This document shows positions 1,985 to 58,170 of a DNA stretch of 60,233 nt, in pieces. The DNA lies in NCBI GenBank assembly GCA_900620265.3, contig UYNY03000023.1, forward strand, positions 1 to 60,233, written 5' to 3'. The number at the start of each line of letters is the position of its first letter. Positions within the stretch are counted from its first letter, which is position 1. A program made the translations under genes and the position numbers. Below the pieces are notes generated by a model. That model did not search any database. It was given only the letters and a program-made list of their open reading frames with translations, and was not told the origin of the DNA. The DNA comes from Nitrosopumilaceae archaeon. GTDB taxonomy: Archaea > Thermoproteota > Nitrososphaeria > Nitrososphaerales > Nitrosopumilaceae.

Positions 1985-2744
1985 GCGCGGCCCTCCCCAG
2001 GTTCTCCCTCATCTGCGCGACGCTCTCTGCCAGGTTCGCCGCGTTGTCAAACCGCGAGAGGATCCCGAGCAGCCGGCCCCTCCCCATGCGCGACATGCCC
2101 TCGATCTCGCGCGCCAGCAGCCCGGCCGAGCGCACCACGTTGTCGACTATCGTGATGCTCGCCGTCCTGGCGGTCCTTGACAGCGGGTTGAGGTCCAGCG
2201 CGATGACGGTCTTGCCCGCGTCCCTGAGCGCCGCAGTCCTGTCGCCGTCCTCGAGCGGCACCAGCACCGCGTCGGCCGCCAGTATGCCGCGCCTGTCGGC
2301 CCACCCGCGGTCCGAGTCCGTCCCCGCAAGGCGCGAGCGCGAGGCGCGCTCCGTCCCCAGCACCCCGCTGGCCCCGTGCCTCCGCAGCGTGCGCGCCACG
2401 GCCCCGGCGCGCCCGCGCCCGCCGTAGAACAGGTTCACCTCGATGGGCGCGCCGGCGGCGCGCCCGATCCCGACCAGCTCGGCCGCGCAGAGCGCCGCGG
2501 CGTTCCCGTTCACGGAGACCACCGGGTGCGACGCGAGCAGGAGGGCGGCGGCCGCCGCCCGGCAGGCGCGCCTTGCGGCCCTGCCGGTCCTCTCCCCCAG
2601 CATATAGTCAAACGCCTCGCCCCTGCCGTGTGCAAGCAGCCCCTCGCGGGCGACCAGCCCGGCGTCAAACCCGTCGACCAGCCTCTGGCGGACGAGCAGC
2701 GAGGCGGCCCTCGGGTGCGAGGCCGGTATGGCATGCCTAGCCAA
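1977..2744 (-). CDS. Archaeal phosphopantothenate synthetase (4-phosphopantoate--beta-alanine ligase)
   Basis: ATP-dependent ligase joining 4-phosphopantoate to beta-alanine; with pantoate kinase it replaces bacterial PanC/PanK in archaea. Recognisable DUF137/COG1701 features: the N-terminal IPASHPRAASL segment, VSVNGNAAAL, EVNLFYGG, VLVPLEDGDRT, and IALDLNPLSRTA. The start chosen is TTG 2744, which gives 255 residues, the usual family size, and overlaps the pantoate kinase stop by 8 nt. A longer reading to 2810 would intrude deeply into that gene and is rejected. Confidence 0.92.
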   Translation of the reverse strand: MARHAIPASHPRAASLLVRQRLVDGFDAGLVAREGLLAHGRGEAFDYMLGERTGRAARRACRAAAAALLLASHPVVSVNGNAAALCAAELVGIGRAAGAPIEVNLFYGGRGRAGAVARTLRRHGASGVLGTERASRSRLAGTDSDRGWADRRGILAADAVLVPLEDGDRTAALRDAGKTVIALDLNPLSRTARTASITIVDNVVRSAGLLAREIEGMSRMGRGRLLGILSRFDNAANLAESVAQMRENLGRAAHA

Positions 2745-3609
2745 CCATCCTCGCCCCCCCGCCGATCCCCGACGTGATGGTGGTGCCCGCGGCCCCCTCC
2801 AGCGCGTCAAGGACGCGCCGCTCCCCGCCCGGCTCTACCAGCGAGAACACCGTCTCGCCGAAGAGCGCCACGCCGCACGGCGCGCCCGCGCCCCGGATCC
2901 TGGCGGCCGCCTCCTCCATGCGCGGCGTGACGACCCCCGCGTGCCTTGCAAACTCGAGCGACATCTCCTGGAACCTGGCCGTGTCCGGGCTCTCGAGCAT
3001 CTCTGAGACCATCCTTCCGCCCCGGCCGTTTATCCTGTCCATGCCGTCCCTCATGAACGAGCTGGTGCGCACGGGCGCGATGCACGATATTACGGCGATG
3101 TCGCCGGACCTGCGCGAGACGACCTCCCCGATGCCGGGCGCGCCGGGGCGCGTGCGCACCTCGAGCCCGCCGTGCAGCGCCGCTATCACGTCGCCGAGCC
3201 CGGTCCTGCACGCGATCTCGGCGCGGTGGGCCACCCTGGCCGCCCCCTCCCTGCCAAGGCCCGTGCCGAGCGCCGCGTCCAGCGCGAGGGACAGCGAGAG
3301 CGCGGCGGCCGCGCTGGCGCCAAGCCCGTATCCGGCCGGCACCCCCACCTCGTGGCATACCTCCGTCCTGCGCGGCCCCGCGATCCCCTCGAACTGGCGC
3401 AGCACGTGCTCTGAGACGGCGGTGCCGCCGGGGTCGTGTCCTGACGCGGTGATCACGTGGCCGGACCCGGCCGAGACGCGCACCCTGGTGGTGACCCCGA
3501 CCGAGAGCGAGAACCCCGCCCCCGTCGAGCCCGCCCTGTCCGGGTCGTCCCCCGGGAACGCCTTGAAGAACCCGGTCACGTGGGCCGGGCAGAAGGCCGC
3601 CGCCTGCAT
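2737..3609 (-). CDS. Pantoate kinase (GHMP kinase family, archaeal)
   Basis: Phosphorylates pantoate to 4-phosphopantoate. It is a 290-residue GHMP-superfamily kinase: N-terminal AFCPAHVTGFF, GSTGAGFSL, and the ATP-binding loop PAGYGLGASAAAAL near residues 90-105. First gene of the CoA cluster, followed with overlap by phosphopantothenate synthetase, panB and coaBC. ATG 3609 lies about 29 nt after a TATA-like CTTATATC on the minus strand (3635-3642), so the message is probably leaderless. The intergenic space is shared with the divergent PhoU-like gene. Confidence 0.93.
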   Translation of the reverse strand: MQAAAFCPAHVTGFFKAFPGDDPDRAGSTGAGFSLSVGVTTRVRVSAGSGHVITASGHDPGGTAVSEHVLRQFEGIAGPRRTEVCHEVGVPAGYGLGASAAAALSLSLALDAALGTGLGREGAARVAHRAEIACRTGLGDVIAALHGGLEVRTRPGAPGIGEVVSRRSGDIAVISCIAPVRTSSFMRDGMDRINGRGGRMVSEMLESPDTARFQEMSLEFARHAGVVTPRMEEAAARIRGAGAPCGVALFGETVFSLVEPGGERRVLDALEGAAGTTITSGIGGGARMVG

Positions 3610-8563: not shown

Positions 8564-9328
8564 TTATACACGGCCATGATGCCGCACCCCGTTGTAGCTT
8601 CGGCTGCGTTGGGGGATGCGGGGCCTACGGCCCCCCTCCGATTTTACAAACATCTTGAGGCCGCCCACGGCGAGCAGCTTTTTCTCGACGGCGGAATAGT
8701 ATCCGGACCACCCCGAGCTGCCGGGGCCCTTCCGGAACCTCCGCCGTATGCAGTACGCCACGCAGTCGGCGACCTGCGTCATGTTGGTCCACCTCGAGTT
8801 CGTGAAGAGCGGGCTTGCGATGATGCGGCGCGATCCGGCCCCGGGCTCTAGGAGCGGGGCCAGCTTTTTGTGCAACCTCCAGTTCTTCCTGTTCGTCTCG
8901 CCGTCCACGACCATCATCGCGTGTACACCCTTGTCCGTCGACAGGTACTTGGCAAGGCGCTTTATGATAAACCCGTAGCCCAGCCGCTCGTTGTCCCCCG
9001 GGGGCCGCATCTCCCCCTTTCTGACAAGGGCCGCCATGATCACCAGCGGGGTGTCCGGATCGGAGATAAATCCAAAGACATCGTCCAGCAGGGCGCGGAT
9101 CCTGTCGTCCGGCATGCCCTTGTAGGCCCCAGTGTGGTTTATGATGTCCTTTGCGTGGATCTCCGCGTCCGCGGGACTCCTGCCCGGAAAGTGCCTGCTC
9201 CTTATCTTGTCGATCTTGTCGTCCAGATAGGGCCGGCTGCGATCATCTACGACCGCGGCGGCCACCACATAGTCCTCCGGATCGGCGAACCCCGGGCTGC
9301 CGGACGTGTCACAGTACGCCATGTACAT
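8564..9328 (-). CDS. DUF3800-family protein, copy 1
   Basis: 254 residues. The DUF3800 hallmarks are visible: N-terminal AYCDTSGSPGF (the DxSG motif), a central MMVVDGETN strand with an Asp, and the C-terminal motif TQVADCVAYCIRRRF. DUF3800 is predicted to have an RNase H-like fold and is often found with mobile or defence genes, but its activity is unproved. ATG 9328 lies about 27 nt after TATA-like AATAAATA (9351-9358). The closest relative in the window is the next gene (9492-10346); a third, broken copy is at 29.1-29.9 kb. Confidence 0.8.
   Translation of the reverse strand: MYMAYCDTSGSPGFADPEDYVVAAAVVDDRSRPYLDDKIDKIRSRHFPGRSPADAEIHAKDIINHTGAYKGMPDDRIRALLDDVFGFISDPDTPLVIMAALVRKGEMRPPGDNERLGYGFIIKRLAKYLSTDKGVHAMMVVDGETNRKNWRLHKKLAPLLEPGAGSRRIIASPLFTNSRWTNMTQVADCVAYCIRRRFRKGPGSSGWSGYYSAVEKKLLAVGGLKMFVKSEGGRRPRIPQRSRSYNGVRHHGRV
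8596..8640. repeat. Repeated 3' tail shared by the two DUF3800 genes (copy at 9555-9601)
   Basis: The last coding stretch of copy 1 (8596-8640) matches that of copy 2 (9555-9601) at roughly 85% of bases by eye, with a 2-nt net length difference in its G/C runs. Because of that, the two proteins leave alignment here: copy 1 reads PRIPQRSRS, while copy 2 would read PRIPRYSRS only after a frame change. Confidence 0.65.
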
Positions 9329-9491: not shown

Positions 9492-10346
9492 CTAACCCGG
9501 CCGCGGCCCGGGACTAATCTTTTTAAGAGGTACTCCTGATGCCCTCCTTGCAACAGCTTCGGCTGTATCGGGGGATGCGGGGCCCCTCGGCCCCCCCTCC
9601 GGTCTAGGAAATACCGCCAGCCCATATTGCCTATATGTCCCGTCCACGGCGAAAAACTTTCCCTCCAGCGCTGAGAAATACCCCAACCAGCGCCTTGAGT
9701 CATTTGGGACGTTTTCCCGGAACTCTTTCCGTATGCAGTATCCCACACAGTCGGCAACCTGTATCATGTTCTTTGAACGTGAATCCGCAAAAAACAGCCT
9801 ACCTGCGTCGTCTACGTACCTTCCTACCTCCGGATTATCCCTCAATATCCTAGCTATCTTGTTCTGCAGCTTGCCGTTCTCGCGGTTCATCTCGTTGTCA
9901 ATTATTATCGTCATGTTCCCCGCCGATTCCCCTTTTGGAGCCGTCTTGTTCTTTCCGGCTAGATACAGACCAAGGCGCTCGAAAACCATCAAATAGCTCA
10001 GGTATTCTATATCGAACTTTTGCAGCACTGCTTTCTTTATGACCATGGATGAGATGTTAGTGATCGGCGTGCTAGGATCAGATATAAATCCAAATACATC
10101 GTCGAGCATCGAATAAACCCTATCTTCTGAGACGCCCTCGTAGACGCCCTCGTGGTTGACCATGTCTTTTACATGGATCTCCACATCCGCCGGTTTTTTA
10201 TCCGGAAAATACCTTCTCTTTGTCTTGTCGATCCCTACGTCCACATAGTCGCTGTCCGCCTCGTTGATAACAGATGCGGTCAGCACGTAGTTCTCCGGAT
10301 CGCGAAACTTTGGGTTGCCGGACGTGTCAAAATATGCCCCGAACAC
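9492..10346 (-). CDS. DUF3800-family protein, copy 2
   Basis: 284 residues, clearly paralogous to the gene at 8564-9328: AYFDTSGNPKF at the N-terminus, VFGFISDPSTPI, IIIDNEMNRENGKL, and QVADCVGYCIRKEF near residue 210. It uses GTG 10346, about 26 nt after a TATA-like box (TATTTAA, 10369-10375). Base composition is clearly less GC-rich than neighbouring genes, which hints at later acquisition. The final 50 or so residues are out of register with copy 1 because of a 2-nt difference in a G/C run, so the C-terminus may not be native. Function unknown. Confidence 0.75.
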   Translation of the reverse strand: MFGAYFDTSGNPKFRDPENYVLTASVINEADSDYVDVGIDKTKRRYFPDKKPADVEIHVKDMVNHEGVYEGVSEDRVYSMLDDVFGFISDPSTPITNISSMVIKKAVLQKFDIEYLSYLMVFERLGLYLAGKNKTAPKGESAGNMTIIIDNEMNRENGKLQNKIARILRDNPEVGRYVDDAGRLFFADSRSKNMIQVADCVGYCIRKEFRENVPNDSRRWLGYFSALEGKFFAVDGTYRQYGLAVFPRPEGGPRGPASPDTAEAVARRASGVPLKKISPGPRPG

Positions 10347-28210: not shown

Positions 28211-28272
28211 GCGCCATGCCGCATCTCCTGCACGGGGCAGGCTTATAGGACGCCGGCGGCATGGCCGCCGCC

Positions 28273-28455
28273 ATGCACGGGCACAGGTTCCGGAGGGATT
28301 TTCCCCCGAACGACGCGGACGAGATGGAGTCCGAGGAGGTGCGGGTCGCAAGGTTCAGGTGCACGCGCCCCGGGTGCGACGAAAGAAAGGTGGTGCGGCG
28401 CAATACGAGCGACGGAAAGGTGCGCAGCGTGGCATTCATTTACGATACATGCTGA
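28273..28455 (+). CDS. Cys-pair mini-protein, copy 1 (ribbon module)
   Basis: 60 residues from ATG 28273, about 28 nt from a CTTATAGG box. It shares a clear pattern with two other genes in this window (28880-29053 and 57832-58041): HRFRRD near the N-terminus, an acidic MESEEVRV stretch, and the core RFRCTRPGCDERKVVRRNT. The C-x4-C pair with upstream His suggests a small zinc knuckle, and the basic RKVVRR tail suggests nucleic acid binding. It is followed by a degenerate DUF3800 frame. No known family. Confidence 0.65.
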   Translation: MHGHRFRRDFPPNDADEMESEEVRVARFRCTRPGCDERKVVRRNTSDGKVRSVAFIYDTC

Positions 28456-28456
28456 A

Positions 28457-28849
28457 GGGCCGGCGGCGCGTAATGCTCCAAATGCCGCGTGTTCCAGCTA
28501 TTTCATTGGCGATGGCAATAACAGCGATCCCGGCACGGGCCCGGCTGCCTCGTGCCGCGGGCATGTGCGGCCTGGCAAGCCCGCCGGTGATCTGCCTTGT
28601 CGCGACGATCCACATCAGCCCGGGGATTGCCAATACGGAGGTTGGCCCACGGGGTTCGAACCGCGCGACACGGGCTGGAAGCGTGCCACGTATAAGCATT
28701 TTCTCAGGCACGGAACGGGGCCTGTGCCCCCGGGGCCCGAACCGCGCGGTGCGGGAGGTCCGTGCCGGCGGCCCAGCCATGGCCCTGATCTGCCGCGCAC
28801 GCTTGAAACTGCCTGTTCCCACCGCGGTAATATATTATGTATCCAATAG
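28457..28849 (+). pseudogene. Degenerate DUF3800 remnant, copy 3 of the family
   Basis: In the frame containing 28499, the bases around 28478-28530 encode PNAACSSYFIGDGNNSDPG, which aligns with PNVSCAGYFIDESGNSSIP of the next DUF3800 copy at 29117-29170, including the DESG position (here GDGN). Beyond about residue 25 the frame continues but is Gly/Pro/Arg-rich with no DUF3800 features, and no start codon fits. I interpret it as a decayed duplicate. The window contains two imperfect repeats of about 45 nt (near 28644 and 28720) within it. Confidence 0.5.
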
Positions 28850-28879
28850 CATATAATACATGACCGGCACGTTCCTGCT

Positions 28880-29053
28880 ATGCAGGTGTGCAGGCATAGG
28901 TACCGGCGGGATCATCCACCGAACGAGATCGAGTCGTCCGCGGTACGCGTCTCGAAGTTCAGGTGTACGCGCCCGGGCTGTAACAAGCGGAAAGTCGTGC
29001 GGCGCAACACCAGTGACGGGAGTGTGCGCAGCGTGGTTTGTATTTATGGCTAG
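28880..29053 (+). CDS. Cys-pair mini-protein, copy 2 (ribbon module)
   Basis: 57 residues: MQVCRHRYRRDHPPNEIE, acidic linker, then KFRCTRPGCNKRKVVRRNT and VRSVVCIYG. It aligns along its whole length with copy 1 607 nt upstream. ATG 28880 is about 27 nt from CATATAATAC (28849-28858). The cysteine near the N-terminus plus His and the C-x4-C pair could bind one zinc. It lies 21 nt upstream of a DUF3800 gene, the same order as copy 1, so the two-gene unit appears to have been duplicated in tandem. Confidence 0.65.
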   Translation: MQVCRHRYRRDHPPNEIESSAVRVSKFRCTRPGCNKRKVVRRNTSDGSVRSVVCIYG

Positions 29054-29074
29054 TCTTTGCTAGCTTGAAAGTGC

Positions 29075-29897
29075 ATGTCTCGAATAAAACCAGACATAAT
29101 GAACAACGATGGGCCAAATGTCAGCTGTGCCGGCTATTTTATTGACGAAAGCGGTAATTCTAGCATACCTGACATGCGGGCCGGACGGCCGAGTTATTTC
29201 ATCCTATCCGGCCTCTCGTGCACCCCAAAAAAATAGACGTAATTAATAGTAGATGTGCGGATCTTTTGATAAAGTACGATCTTAAGGGCATAAAGGAGCT
29301 CAAATATCATGGCCTTATACCAAAAAAGGGATGTATTGGAAACATGGAAAAGTCTGCGATGATGCATGATATACTTTCCATCGTAATTTCTGAAAAATTA
29401 CCCGTACATGTAATAATTTCTGAAAAAAAGGGGCTTTTTTTAGCAGGAATCTTCCTGCTGAATCCGTGCACGTGTTTGCAACTCGGCATCTCCTATATCG
29501 CGTGCTTGAGTTTGTATACAAGCTGCCTGCATCCGACATTTACCCGCCATGTATGGCAGTATATCCTGATGATTCGGACTTGTTCATACGGAATGGTATA
29601 GACAACATGATGGACGAATGCAAGATTAATGGTTATGAGGGCAGAAAATATACGCGCAAATATTATGAAAATCTTACAACCTACGGTTTTTCCAAGTCCG
29701 AGGAACACGCCGGAATCCAGCTTGCCGACATGTGCTGCGGGGCGGTGGCGGAGCTGATACAACACGGGGACGCCCGCTTCTTCAGGCAGCTGAGGGACCA
29801 CGCCCGGGCGCTTGATCCCGGCTGGCTGGGGGTTTATCCCGGTCGGTTCAGGGACAGGACGGAGCAGGACAGGCTGCGGGGGCTATTGGACGGCTGA
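29075..29897 (+). pseudogene. DUF3800-family gene interrupted by two frameshifts
   Basis: Frame from ATG 29075 encodes CAGYFIDESGNSSIP and reaches YFILSGLSCTPKK before a TAG at the run of seven A (29224-29230). The frame one base over carries on as PKKIDVINSRCADLLIKYDLKG to the region of A7/T8 runs at 29424-29441. A third frame then finishes with NGIDNMMDECKINGYEGRKY and the family motif HAGIQLADMCCGAVAEL. Restoring both shifts gives about 270 residues, the DUF3800 size. The shifts sit at homopolymers, so sequencing error or slippage is as possible as decay. The 5' two-thirds is AT-rich. Confidence 0.7.
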
Positions 29898-30237
29898 TCG
29901 TGCCCGCGCAGGCGTGGGCCGCCACTAGGGGCGGCACGCGCCGGGCTGACCGGGGAATCGAACCCGCCGGGTCGTCACCGGCCCGCGCCTTGTACCGGGC
30001 TTGTTGATCACCTGGCCGCATCCCGCTGTATCGGCGCCCGGCCTTGATCCGCCGGACGGGCGGAGCGGCGTCCCCCGTCCCGGAACGGGCCGGGCGCCAC
30101 CCGCCCAATCGGCGCCACTGCATCCAGTCTGCGGCAAGTCCGGCCGAATCCCCCCGCGGCCGTGTGGTTTGGGCGCCCCCCGGTCCCGGCGGCCTAGTTT
30201 CCAAGTCCGGGCCGGCCCCACGCCCATGGTTTAAATA
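29898..30237. other. 340-nt non-coding GC-rich stretch before atpK
   Basis: No convincing gene. GCCGCC (29918-29923) and GGCGGC (29930-29935) form a perfect 6-bp stem with a 6-nt loop just after the DUF3800 end. On the minus strand around 29960 a TTCGATT loop preceded by GCGGG and followed by CCCCG resembles a tRNA T arm, but only three of five pairs form and no acceptor partner is found. TTTAAATA (30230-30237) is the atpK TATA box. Confidence 0.5.
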
Positions 30238-57330: not shown

Positions 57331-57546
57331 TTATTCTTCATCGTACTCAAATATGACCTTGCATATATTATCAGTCACATACCATCTCTTTGTACCAGTC
57401 CCGCATGACACCAAACCATCAAGTTCTCTGATGCTGTCAGCTTTGCCGATCTTTTCCATTAATTTTGTAACCATATCAGTTTGTTGATGCATTACTCTGA
57501 TGCCTATTAACTCGTGAATAAATCCCCGGGTTACTGTGAGTTCCAT
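57331..57546 (-). CDS. Small protein, possible RelE-like toxin of a two-gene locus
   Basis: 71 residues: FIHELIGIRVMHQQTDMVTKL, then IRELDGLVSCGTGTKRWYVTDNICKVIFEYDEE. The last part resembles the R-x-R-V-G-D-Y-R-V-I-Y-E-x-D-D-E core of RelE-type toxins, but the protein is short. ATG 57546 shares its A with the stop of the preceding 51-residue gene, the tight coupling usual for toxin-antitoxin pairs. After the TAA, the same frame continues as NKPNLINFEFKVRTNIERKL to a TGA at about 57258, so the gene may once have been longer. AT-rich. Confidence 0.5.
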   Translation of the reverse strand: MELTVTRGFIHELIGIRVMHQQTDMVTKLMEKIGKADSIRELDGLVSCGTGTKRWYVTDNICKVIFEYDEE

Positions 57547-57701
57547 CAGGAATTGAGTATGGCGAGGATCTTTCTCATCTTGTCTGCCGTCATTGGAATC
57601 TTCTCAGTACCGTGCCTTAGTGACTCCTCCACCAGTTCGGTATCTCTCTCGGTCCACCCGTTCCACGTCTTCCTGTCCCCCGGATCCACCTTGTCCTCCA
57701 T
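57546..57701 (-). CDS. Small acidic-basic protein, possible antitoxin
   Basis: 51 residues from ATG 57701, about 27 nt from the AT-rich TATA region ATTATATATTTATTTAA (57724-57740). Sequence: KVDPGDRKTWNGWTERDTE then LVEESLRHGTEKIPMTADKM and RKILAILNS. It is helical and charged, and its stop overlaps the next start (TGATG). The size, charge and coupling fit an antitoxin; no domain is recognised. Confidence 0.5.
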   Translation of the reverse strand: MEDKVDPGDRKTWNGWTERDTELVEESLRHGTEKIPMTADKMRKILAILNS

Positions 57702-57831
57702 GCCCCTCACGCATGATCGGGTGTATTATATATTTATTTAATACGTGGCGTGTGGCCATGGGCGTTCCAAGATATTCCCTGCAGGTGGCTGCGATCTAGG
57801 GCGATTGGGGAGATCTTGATCAGAGTCCCGC

Positions 57832-58041
57832 TCATGGAGGCGTCACTTGTAAAGGTATGATACGCTCTTTATCCTGCCATCCGGGTTGGCTCCGCCTTAC
57901 CACCTTCCTCGTGTTGCAGTCCGGGCGGGTGCACCTGAACCTGTACACCCTTACCTCAGGCGACTCCATCTCGTATACGCCCCTGACGGGCCTGCCCTCC
58001 GGTATCCCGTCCCTGCGGAACCTGTGCCTGCATGCCACCAT
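57832..58041 (-). CDS. Cys-pair mini-protein, copy 3
   Basis: 69 residues. The N-terminus ACRHRFRRDGIPEG and the core YRFRCTRPDCNTRKVVRRS align with the two copies at 28.3 and 28.9 kb. After that, the sequence differs (QPGWQDKERIIPLQVTPP). ATG 58041 is about 28 nt from GATATAGC (58064-58071). There is no DUF3800 gene beside this copy; the neighbours are a possible toxin-antitoxin pair. A small zinc-binding nucleic-acid-binding role is possible. Confidence 0.65.
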   Translation of the reverse strand: MVACRHRFRRDGIPEGRPVRGVYEMESPEVRVYRFRCTRPDCNTRKVVRRSQPGWQDKERIIPLQVTPP

Positions 58042-58170
58042 GGCCGGGCTCCGGCCCCCCCGGTGCTATATCCGGATCCCCCGCGGGCGGGGCCCGGGAT
58101 CACGCCTAGATCCGGCGATCAGCGGACAGGTCGGGAGGGTTTTTATACGACCCTGATCCGGGCCGGGGCG

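Follow-up and report, generated by a model that had tools for sequence, protein, structure and literature searches.

Results

Gene content of the locus

The window, by which we mean the whole 60,233-nt stretch of DNA analysed, comes from an archaeon of marine type and contains three copies of a gene for a small protein (the mini-gene), together with DUF3800 genes and a DUF3800 remnant (Table 1). Mini-gene copies 1 and 2, the remnant and a broken DUF3800 gene lie together in the A-type ATP synthase cluster; copy 3 lies apart, on the other strand. The distance between the subunit D and proteolipid genes is 186-194 nt in six relatives from the genus and 2,176 nt here. Hence, the mini-gene/DUF3800 block has been inserted into the conserved A-type ATP synthase cluster.

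Table 1. Positions of the mini-genes, their promoters, DUF3800 sequences and neighboring features in the window
Feature	Position	Strand	Description
Insertion of about 2 kb	28211..30237	.	Separates the ATP synthase subunit D / small ORF genes from that for the proteolipid subunit
TATA element TTATAG of copy 1	28243..28248	+	At -30
Mini-gene copy 1	28273..28455	+	60 aa, MHGHRFRRD...FRCTRPGCDERKVVRR...VRSVAFIYDTC; ORF, dN/dS, WRKY match
DUF3800 start remnant	28473..28549	+	SSYFIGDGNN...; alignment with 29109-29190
Two 30-nt stretches	28645-28674, 28726-28755		80% identical; one with a GGTTCGAACC core like a tRNA T-arm
TATA element ATATAA of copy 2	28851..28856	+	At -29
Mini-gene copy 2	28880..29053	+	57 aa, MQVCRHRYRRD...FRCTRPGCNKRKVVRR...VRSVVCIYG; ORF, WRKY (PF03106) match, AlphaFold model
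DUF3800 gene, three frames	29075..29897	+	29075 to ~29233, ~29218 to ~29441, ~29442 to 29897; FIDESG and QLAD kept
Mini-gene copy 3	57832..58041	-	MVACRHRFRRD...FRCTRPDCNTRKVVRR, followed by a frame shift immediately past 57892
Homologous tail of copy 3	57890-57843	-	ANPDGRIKSVSYLYK, in another frame
TATA element ATATAG of copy 3	58066..58071	-	At -30
Two small AT-rich ORFs	57331-57546, 57546-57710	-	Downstream of copy 3
Two full-length DUF3800 genes	8564-9328, 9492-10346	-	Tandem, YFDTSG/YCDTSG type; without adjacent mini-gene or large partner

The original prediction had described two mini-genes in parallel spacing, each followed by DUF3800 sequence. The spacing was confirmed: the two ORFs are 607 nt apart from ATG to ATG, and the YFI codons of the DUF3800 sequences, claimed to be about 635 nt apart, are 636 nt apart. 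Both mini-genes are real, but the count was incomplete, as copy 3 had been overlooked; a whole-genome search gave no other credible copy beyond these three. Copies 1 and 2 are 74% identical across 127 nt. The likeness of their upstream DNA, which was reached by 26 of 2,000 shuffles, is suggestive only.

A similarity to DUF3800 had also been claimed at 28.48 kb, and alignment upheld it: the score is 49, and none of 500 dinucleotide shuffles exceeded 37. Of the first DUF3800 copy there is indeed a remnant, detectable over about 77 nt, but past 28550 the similarity is only at chance level. Downstream of the remnant we observed two similar 30-nt stretches, one of them with a core resembling a tRNA T-arm; neither ARAGORN nor Rfam found a tRNA there, and there are no tRNA genes in the window.

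The C-terminal part of the second DUF3800 copy (29466-29897) matches PF12686 above the cut-off, with 26.3 bits, or 28.9 bits in the genome search. The gene as a whole is not one continuous reading frame. Two frameshifts had been predicted and taken as decay; both breaks are present, but decay is unproven, as they fall in homopolymers, at an A7 run (29227-29233) and at A7/T7 runs (29423-29441). These sites make up three of the five A or T runs of 7 or more in the 60 kb. Because the breaks sit on such runs, sequencing error, slippage and decay are indistinguishable. At third codon positions, the GC content (GC3) is 0.76-0.88 in the mini-genes and 0.88-0.90 in the host ATP synthase genes, against 0.33-0.54 in most of the DUF3800 gene. 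This contrast suggests that the mini-genes and the DUF3800 gene have different histories; the latter, AT-rich and sporadically distributed, was probably acquired horizontally.

The mini-genes are old and constrained

All three mini-proteins share HR[FY]RRD toward the N terminus and [KR]FRCTRP[GD]CxxRKVVRR. Where the gene copies differ, it is mostly at third codon positions. Pairwise dN is 0.13-0.19 and dS 1.6-1.9 (about 1.7), giving dN/dS of about 0.08-0.10. The third-position bias and low dN/dS argue that the mini-genes are coding, constrained and old, and the near saturation of synonymous sites places the duplication far back. We conclude that strong purifying selection has long acted on the mini-genes. 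In copy 3, the reading frame shifts just past VVRR, and the homologous tail continues in another frame. The two small AT-rich ORFs downstream of this copy had no convincing family match.

A TATA hexamer lies 29 or 30 nt upstream of the ATG in three of three mini-genes; the background for this motif is 0.9% per 16-nt stretch. For copy 1, the element at -30 led us to prefer the ATG at 28273 over that at 28261. Among the mini-gene promoters, only that of copy 1 has a W-box-like site nearby, at -288. No TATA box was found in the 21-nt gap between copy 2 and the DUF3800 ORF, and the two genes are probably cotranscribed.

Perhaps the block is merely a small decayed mobile island in the ATP synthase cluster, none of whose genes matters now? 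It is an insertion relative to six relatives, its DUF3800 gene is AT-rich with frame breaks, and it holds a DUF3800 remnant, all of which would fit. However, long and strong purifying selection on the mini-genes and the retention of their promoters make this explanation very improbable.

The mini-proteins resemble WRKY domains

Searching Pfam at E<=10, we obtained WRKY (PF03106) as the sole family match for each of the three copies. The scores were 21.6 bits for copy 2 (E 2.6e-4), 18.1 for copy 1 and 13.5 for copy 3, to be read against the family cut-off of 21 bits, which only copy 2 exceeds, and against noise of up to 19 bits for the WRKY profile in a search of 398 genomes. When a profile of the three copies was compared with all PDB chains, the top six were WRKY chains (best E 0.012). 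With an HMM built from nine plant WRKY domains, copies 2, 1 and 3 scored 23.1, 24.1 and 18.8 bits, compared with maxima of 20.7, 17.5 and 15.7 bits in 20,000 shuffles of each with Cys and His fixed. Alignment of the mini-protein with WRKY by hhalign gave a probability of 95% over 30 columns, and about 30 residues is the extent of the similarity.

The predicted folds point the same way. AlphaFold models of copy 2 (pLDDT 81, pTM 0.59) and copy 1 (pLDDT 77, pTM 0.58) contain a four-stranded antiparallel sheet of WRKY type; they were built on three sequences only, and recall of the WRKY pattern by AlphaFold may contribute. WRKY domains occupied ranks 1-5 of the PDB fold matches for the copy 2 model and ranks 1-6 for the copy 1 model (probability 0.84-1.00), and the query-normalized TM scores of these predicted models reached 0.72 with AtWRKY2 and 0.71 with AtWRKY1. 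Foldseek E-values were 0.007-0.5, none of them at or below 0.001. AFT2, another member of the WRKY-GCM1 group, appeared at lower rank.

The putative zinc ligands are arranged differently. Before the first strand, three of three mini-proteins have [C/H]-x-H, as H-G-H in copy 1 and as C-R-H in the other two, and all keep a C-x4-C pair ahead of the RKVVRR strand. The C-terminal H-x-H of WRKY is absent from all three copies, which end in ...IYG, ...IYDTC and ...LYK; WRKYGQK or a near-variant is likewise absent from them, its position being occupied by HRFRRD or HRYRRD. Strand 1 of the WRKY meander begins at the end of the sheet where the cysteine pair lies. By this geometry, a zinc site made from the N-terminal [C/H]-x-H and C-x4-C is plausible, and the ligand pair of the mini-proteins has probably been relocated relative to WRKY. 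Since the mini-protein lacks both WRKYGQK and the C-terminal H-x-H, we do not file it as a WRKY member: it is a WRKY-like domain. The earlier suggestion of a small nucleic-acid-binding protein gains support and is sharpened, by sequence and model, to a putative WRKY-like beta-sheet zinc domain.

Might the mini-protein instead be a small zinc ribbon ([CH]xH...Cx4C) with no kinship to WRKY, of phage/plasmid type or like PyrI, that converged on FRCTxPGC? Its ligand arrangement is unlike that of WRKY, a neighboring gene encodes a PyrI with FRCANPGC, and small actinophage proteins turn up in a viral fold search with probability up to 1.00. However, the PyrI zinc knuckle, put through the same WRKY comparisons as a control, aligns over just 12 columns and scores inside the shuffle null, there is no sequence relative in phages or plasmids, and WRKY came first in four comparisons. 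An unrelated zinc ribbon is therefore a tentative alternative, on the unlikely side.

In the portion of a 2015 survey available to us, WRKY genes are listed from plants and some diplomonads, amoebae and fungi, and prokaryotes go unmentioned there (PMC4350883). A literature search, limited in coverage, gave no mention of WRKY in prokaryotes.

The mini-gene has no detectable relatives outside this genome, and its DUF3800 pairing is seen at one locus

No relative of the mini-protein was found in 249 other genomes of the family or in a search of 94 other genomes of the genus, and none that was credible in a GTDB scan, viral contigs, phages or plasmids. Across 398 genomes of the phylum, only short weak matches appeared, none credible. 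Several candidates were inspected and rejected. A Thiohalocapsa match from GTDB had low identity, overlapped a gene for a phosphate-binding-type protein and was judged due to chance; a weak match on contig C84 overlapped an 863-aa ORF; among plasmid and phage tblastn matches, the inspected plasmid translations held no mini-like protein; and the phylum matches were short, several of them containing stops.

DUF3800 is described as a family of RNase H-fold nucleases that accompanies some Cas12 loci and noncoding RNAs (PMC10910872, PMC12669027). At our locus we found no Cas12, TPR or known noncoding RNA partner, and Rfam, including its DUF3800-associated RNAs, gave no match. DUF3800 matches occur in 14 of 95 genus genomes, with eight in this genome, and none of the seven others here and none in the 13 relatives lies beside a mini-gene. 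The upstream ORFs of those DUF3800 loci that were fetched and could be placed encode no mini-like protein. Conversely, no DUF3800 sequence is detectable downstream of mini-gene copy 3.

The original prediction had read the two genes as an undescribed two-component system and had expected homologues of the mini-protein to lie beside DUF3800 in other genomes. As far as this could be tested, they do not: the mini-protein has no detectable relatives outside this genome, copy 3 stands alone and the other DUF3800 genes are unpaired. Perhaps the mini-protein nonetheless acts on the DUF3800 nuclease here, as its antitoxin or regulator, in a toxin-antitoxin or defense module? The gene order, a small DNA binder followed by a putative nuclease, the 21-nt gap with no internal TATA and the presence of DUF3800 sequence in both duplicated copies would suit such a module, as would a sporadic nuclease family known as a CRISPR accessory (PMC10910872, PMC12669027). 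Yet the pairing at a single locus amounts to one event, partly duplicated, and the mini-genes have a host-like GC3 while most of the DUF3800 gene does not. Given the unpaired DUF3800 genes and the solitary copy 3, we take the pairing as one local arrangement, partly duplicated. What survives of it is the short gap without TATA and a duplicated block that takes in the DUF3800 start. A toxin-antitoxin or defense pair is not supported, and we consider it quite doubtful.

Other DUF3800 loci in the genome

DUF3800 follows a protein of about 1,000 aa, similar to Dsr1, in four places in this genome, a more regular association than that with the mini-gene; the window contains no remnant of this large partner. 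Eight paralogues of the Dsr1-like protein lie on three contigs (C8, C12 and C106), and their similarity to Dsr1 in PADLOC had E 7e-8 for one copy and 0.045 for another. Four of the eight directly precede DUF3800, each time with a second paralogue nearby. Distant relatives occur in only 2 of 94 other genus genomes. The Dsr1-like protein and DUF3800 are a candidate lineage-specific defense-like module.

At a locus on contig C57, a DUF3800 gene is flanked by three repeats of about 530 nt with 71-81% identity (242-766, 856-1387 and 2727-3252 of that locus), which coincide with ORFs of about 180 aa.

Discussion

The explanation that we favor, with belief and doubt in roughly equal measure, is that the mini-genes encode lineage-specific, stand-alone, WRKY-like DNA-binding zinc proteins, and that copy 2 is cotranscribed with an acquired DUF3800 gene that is not an obligate partner. 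In such a protein, C-x4-C and the N-terminal [C/H]-x-H, the latter in place of the C-terminal H-x-H of WRKY, would bind zinc, and the arginine-rich sheet (HR[FY]RRD, RKVVRR) would bind DNA; we infer the binding from the predicted fold and the arginine-rich strands. The protein could serve as a small transcriptional regulator or a DNA-binding accessory. The block itself would be an insertion of about 2 kb inside the ATP synthase cluster, partly duplicated long ago. The frame shift near the C terminus of copy 3 counts against the WRKY-like reading.

A bolder proposal, which we think improbable, is that the mini-protein is a true archaeal DNA-binding domain of the WRKY-GCM1 superfamily, standing alone in 60 residues, with one zinc ligand pair moved from the C to the N terminus, that it has expanded to three copies, and that at one locus it controls a DUF3800 nuclease. 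In the part of the survey available to us, WRKY-type domains are reported from no organisms but eukaryotes, namely plants and some microbes (PMC4350883). If the mini-protein is a stand-alone archaeal relative whose zinc site was rearranged, it would inform the question of how the WRKY-GCM1 fold arose; otherwise, it would offer a clean example of convergence, with sheet and zinc knuckle reached independently. The DUF3800 partnership is local and, on present evidence, should not be catalogued as a defense system.

How does the locus compare with known systems? Like other members of DUF3800 (PF12686), the gene here has the FIDESG and QLAD motifs and a C-terminal part above the family cut-off, but it is split by two frame breaks and stands without a Cas12, TPR or known noncoding RNA partner. 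With type II toxin-antitoxin operons, the locus shares the order of a gene for a small basic protein, then a putative nuclease gene after a short gap; unlike those operons, its pairing is not conserved, and both genes also occur alone. From WRKY (PF03106), the mini-proteins differ in having the N-terminal [C/H]-x-H, in lacking WRKYGQK and the C-terminal H-x-H, and in being stand-alone proteins of 57-65 aa in an archaeal host. They share with it the [FY]-[RK]-C-T-x-P-G-C-x-x-[RK]-K-x-V-x-R core, the strand spacing and the predicted sheet, and WRKY is their best match in sequence, profile and fold comparisons alike.
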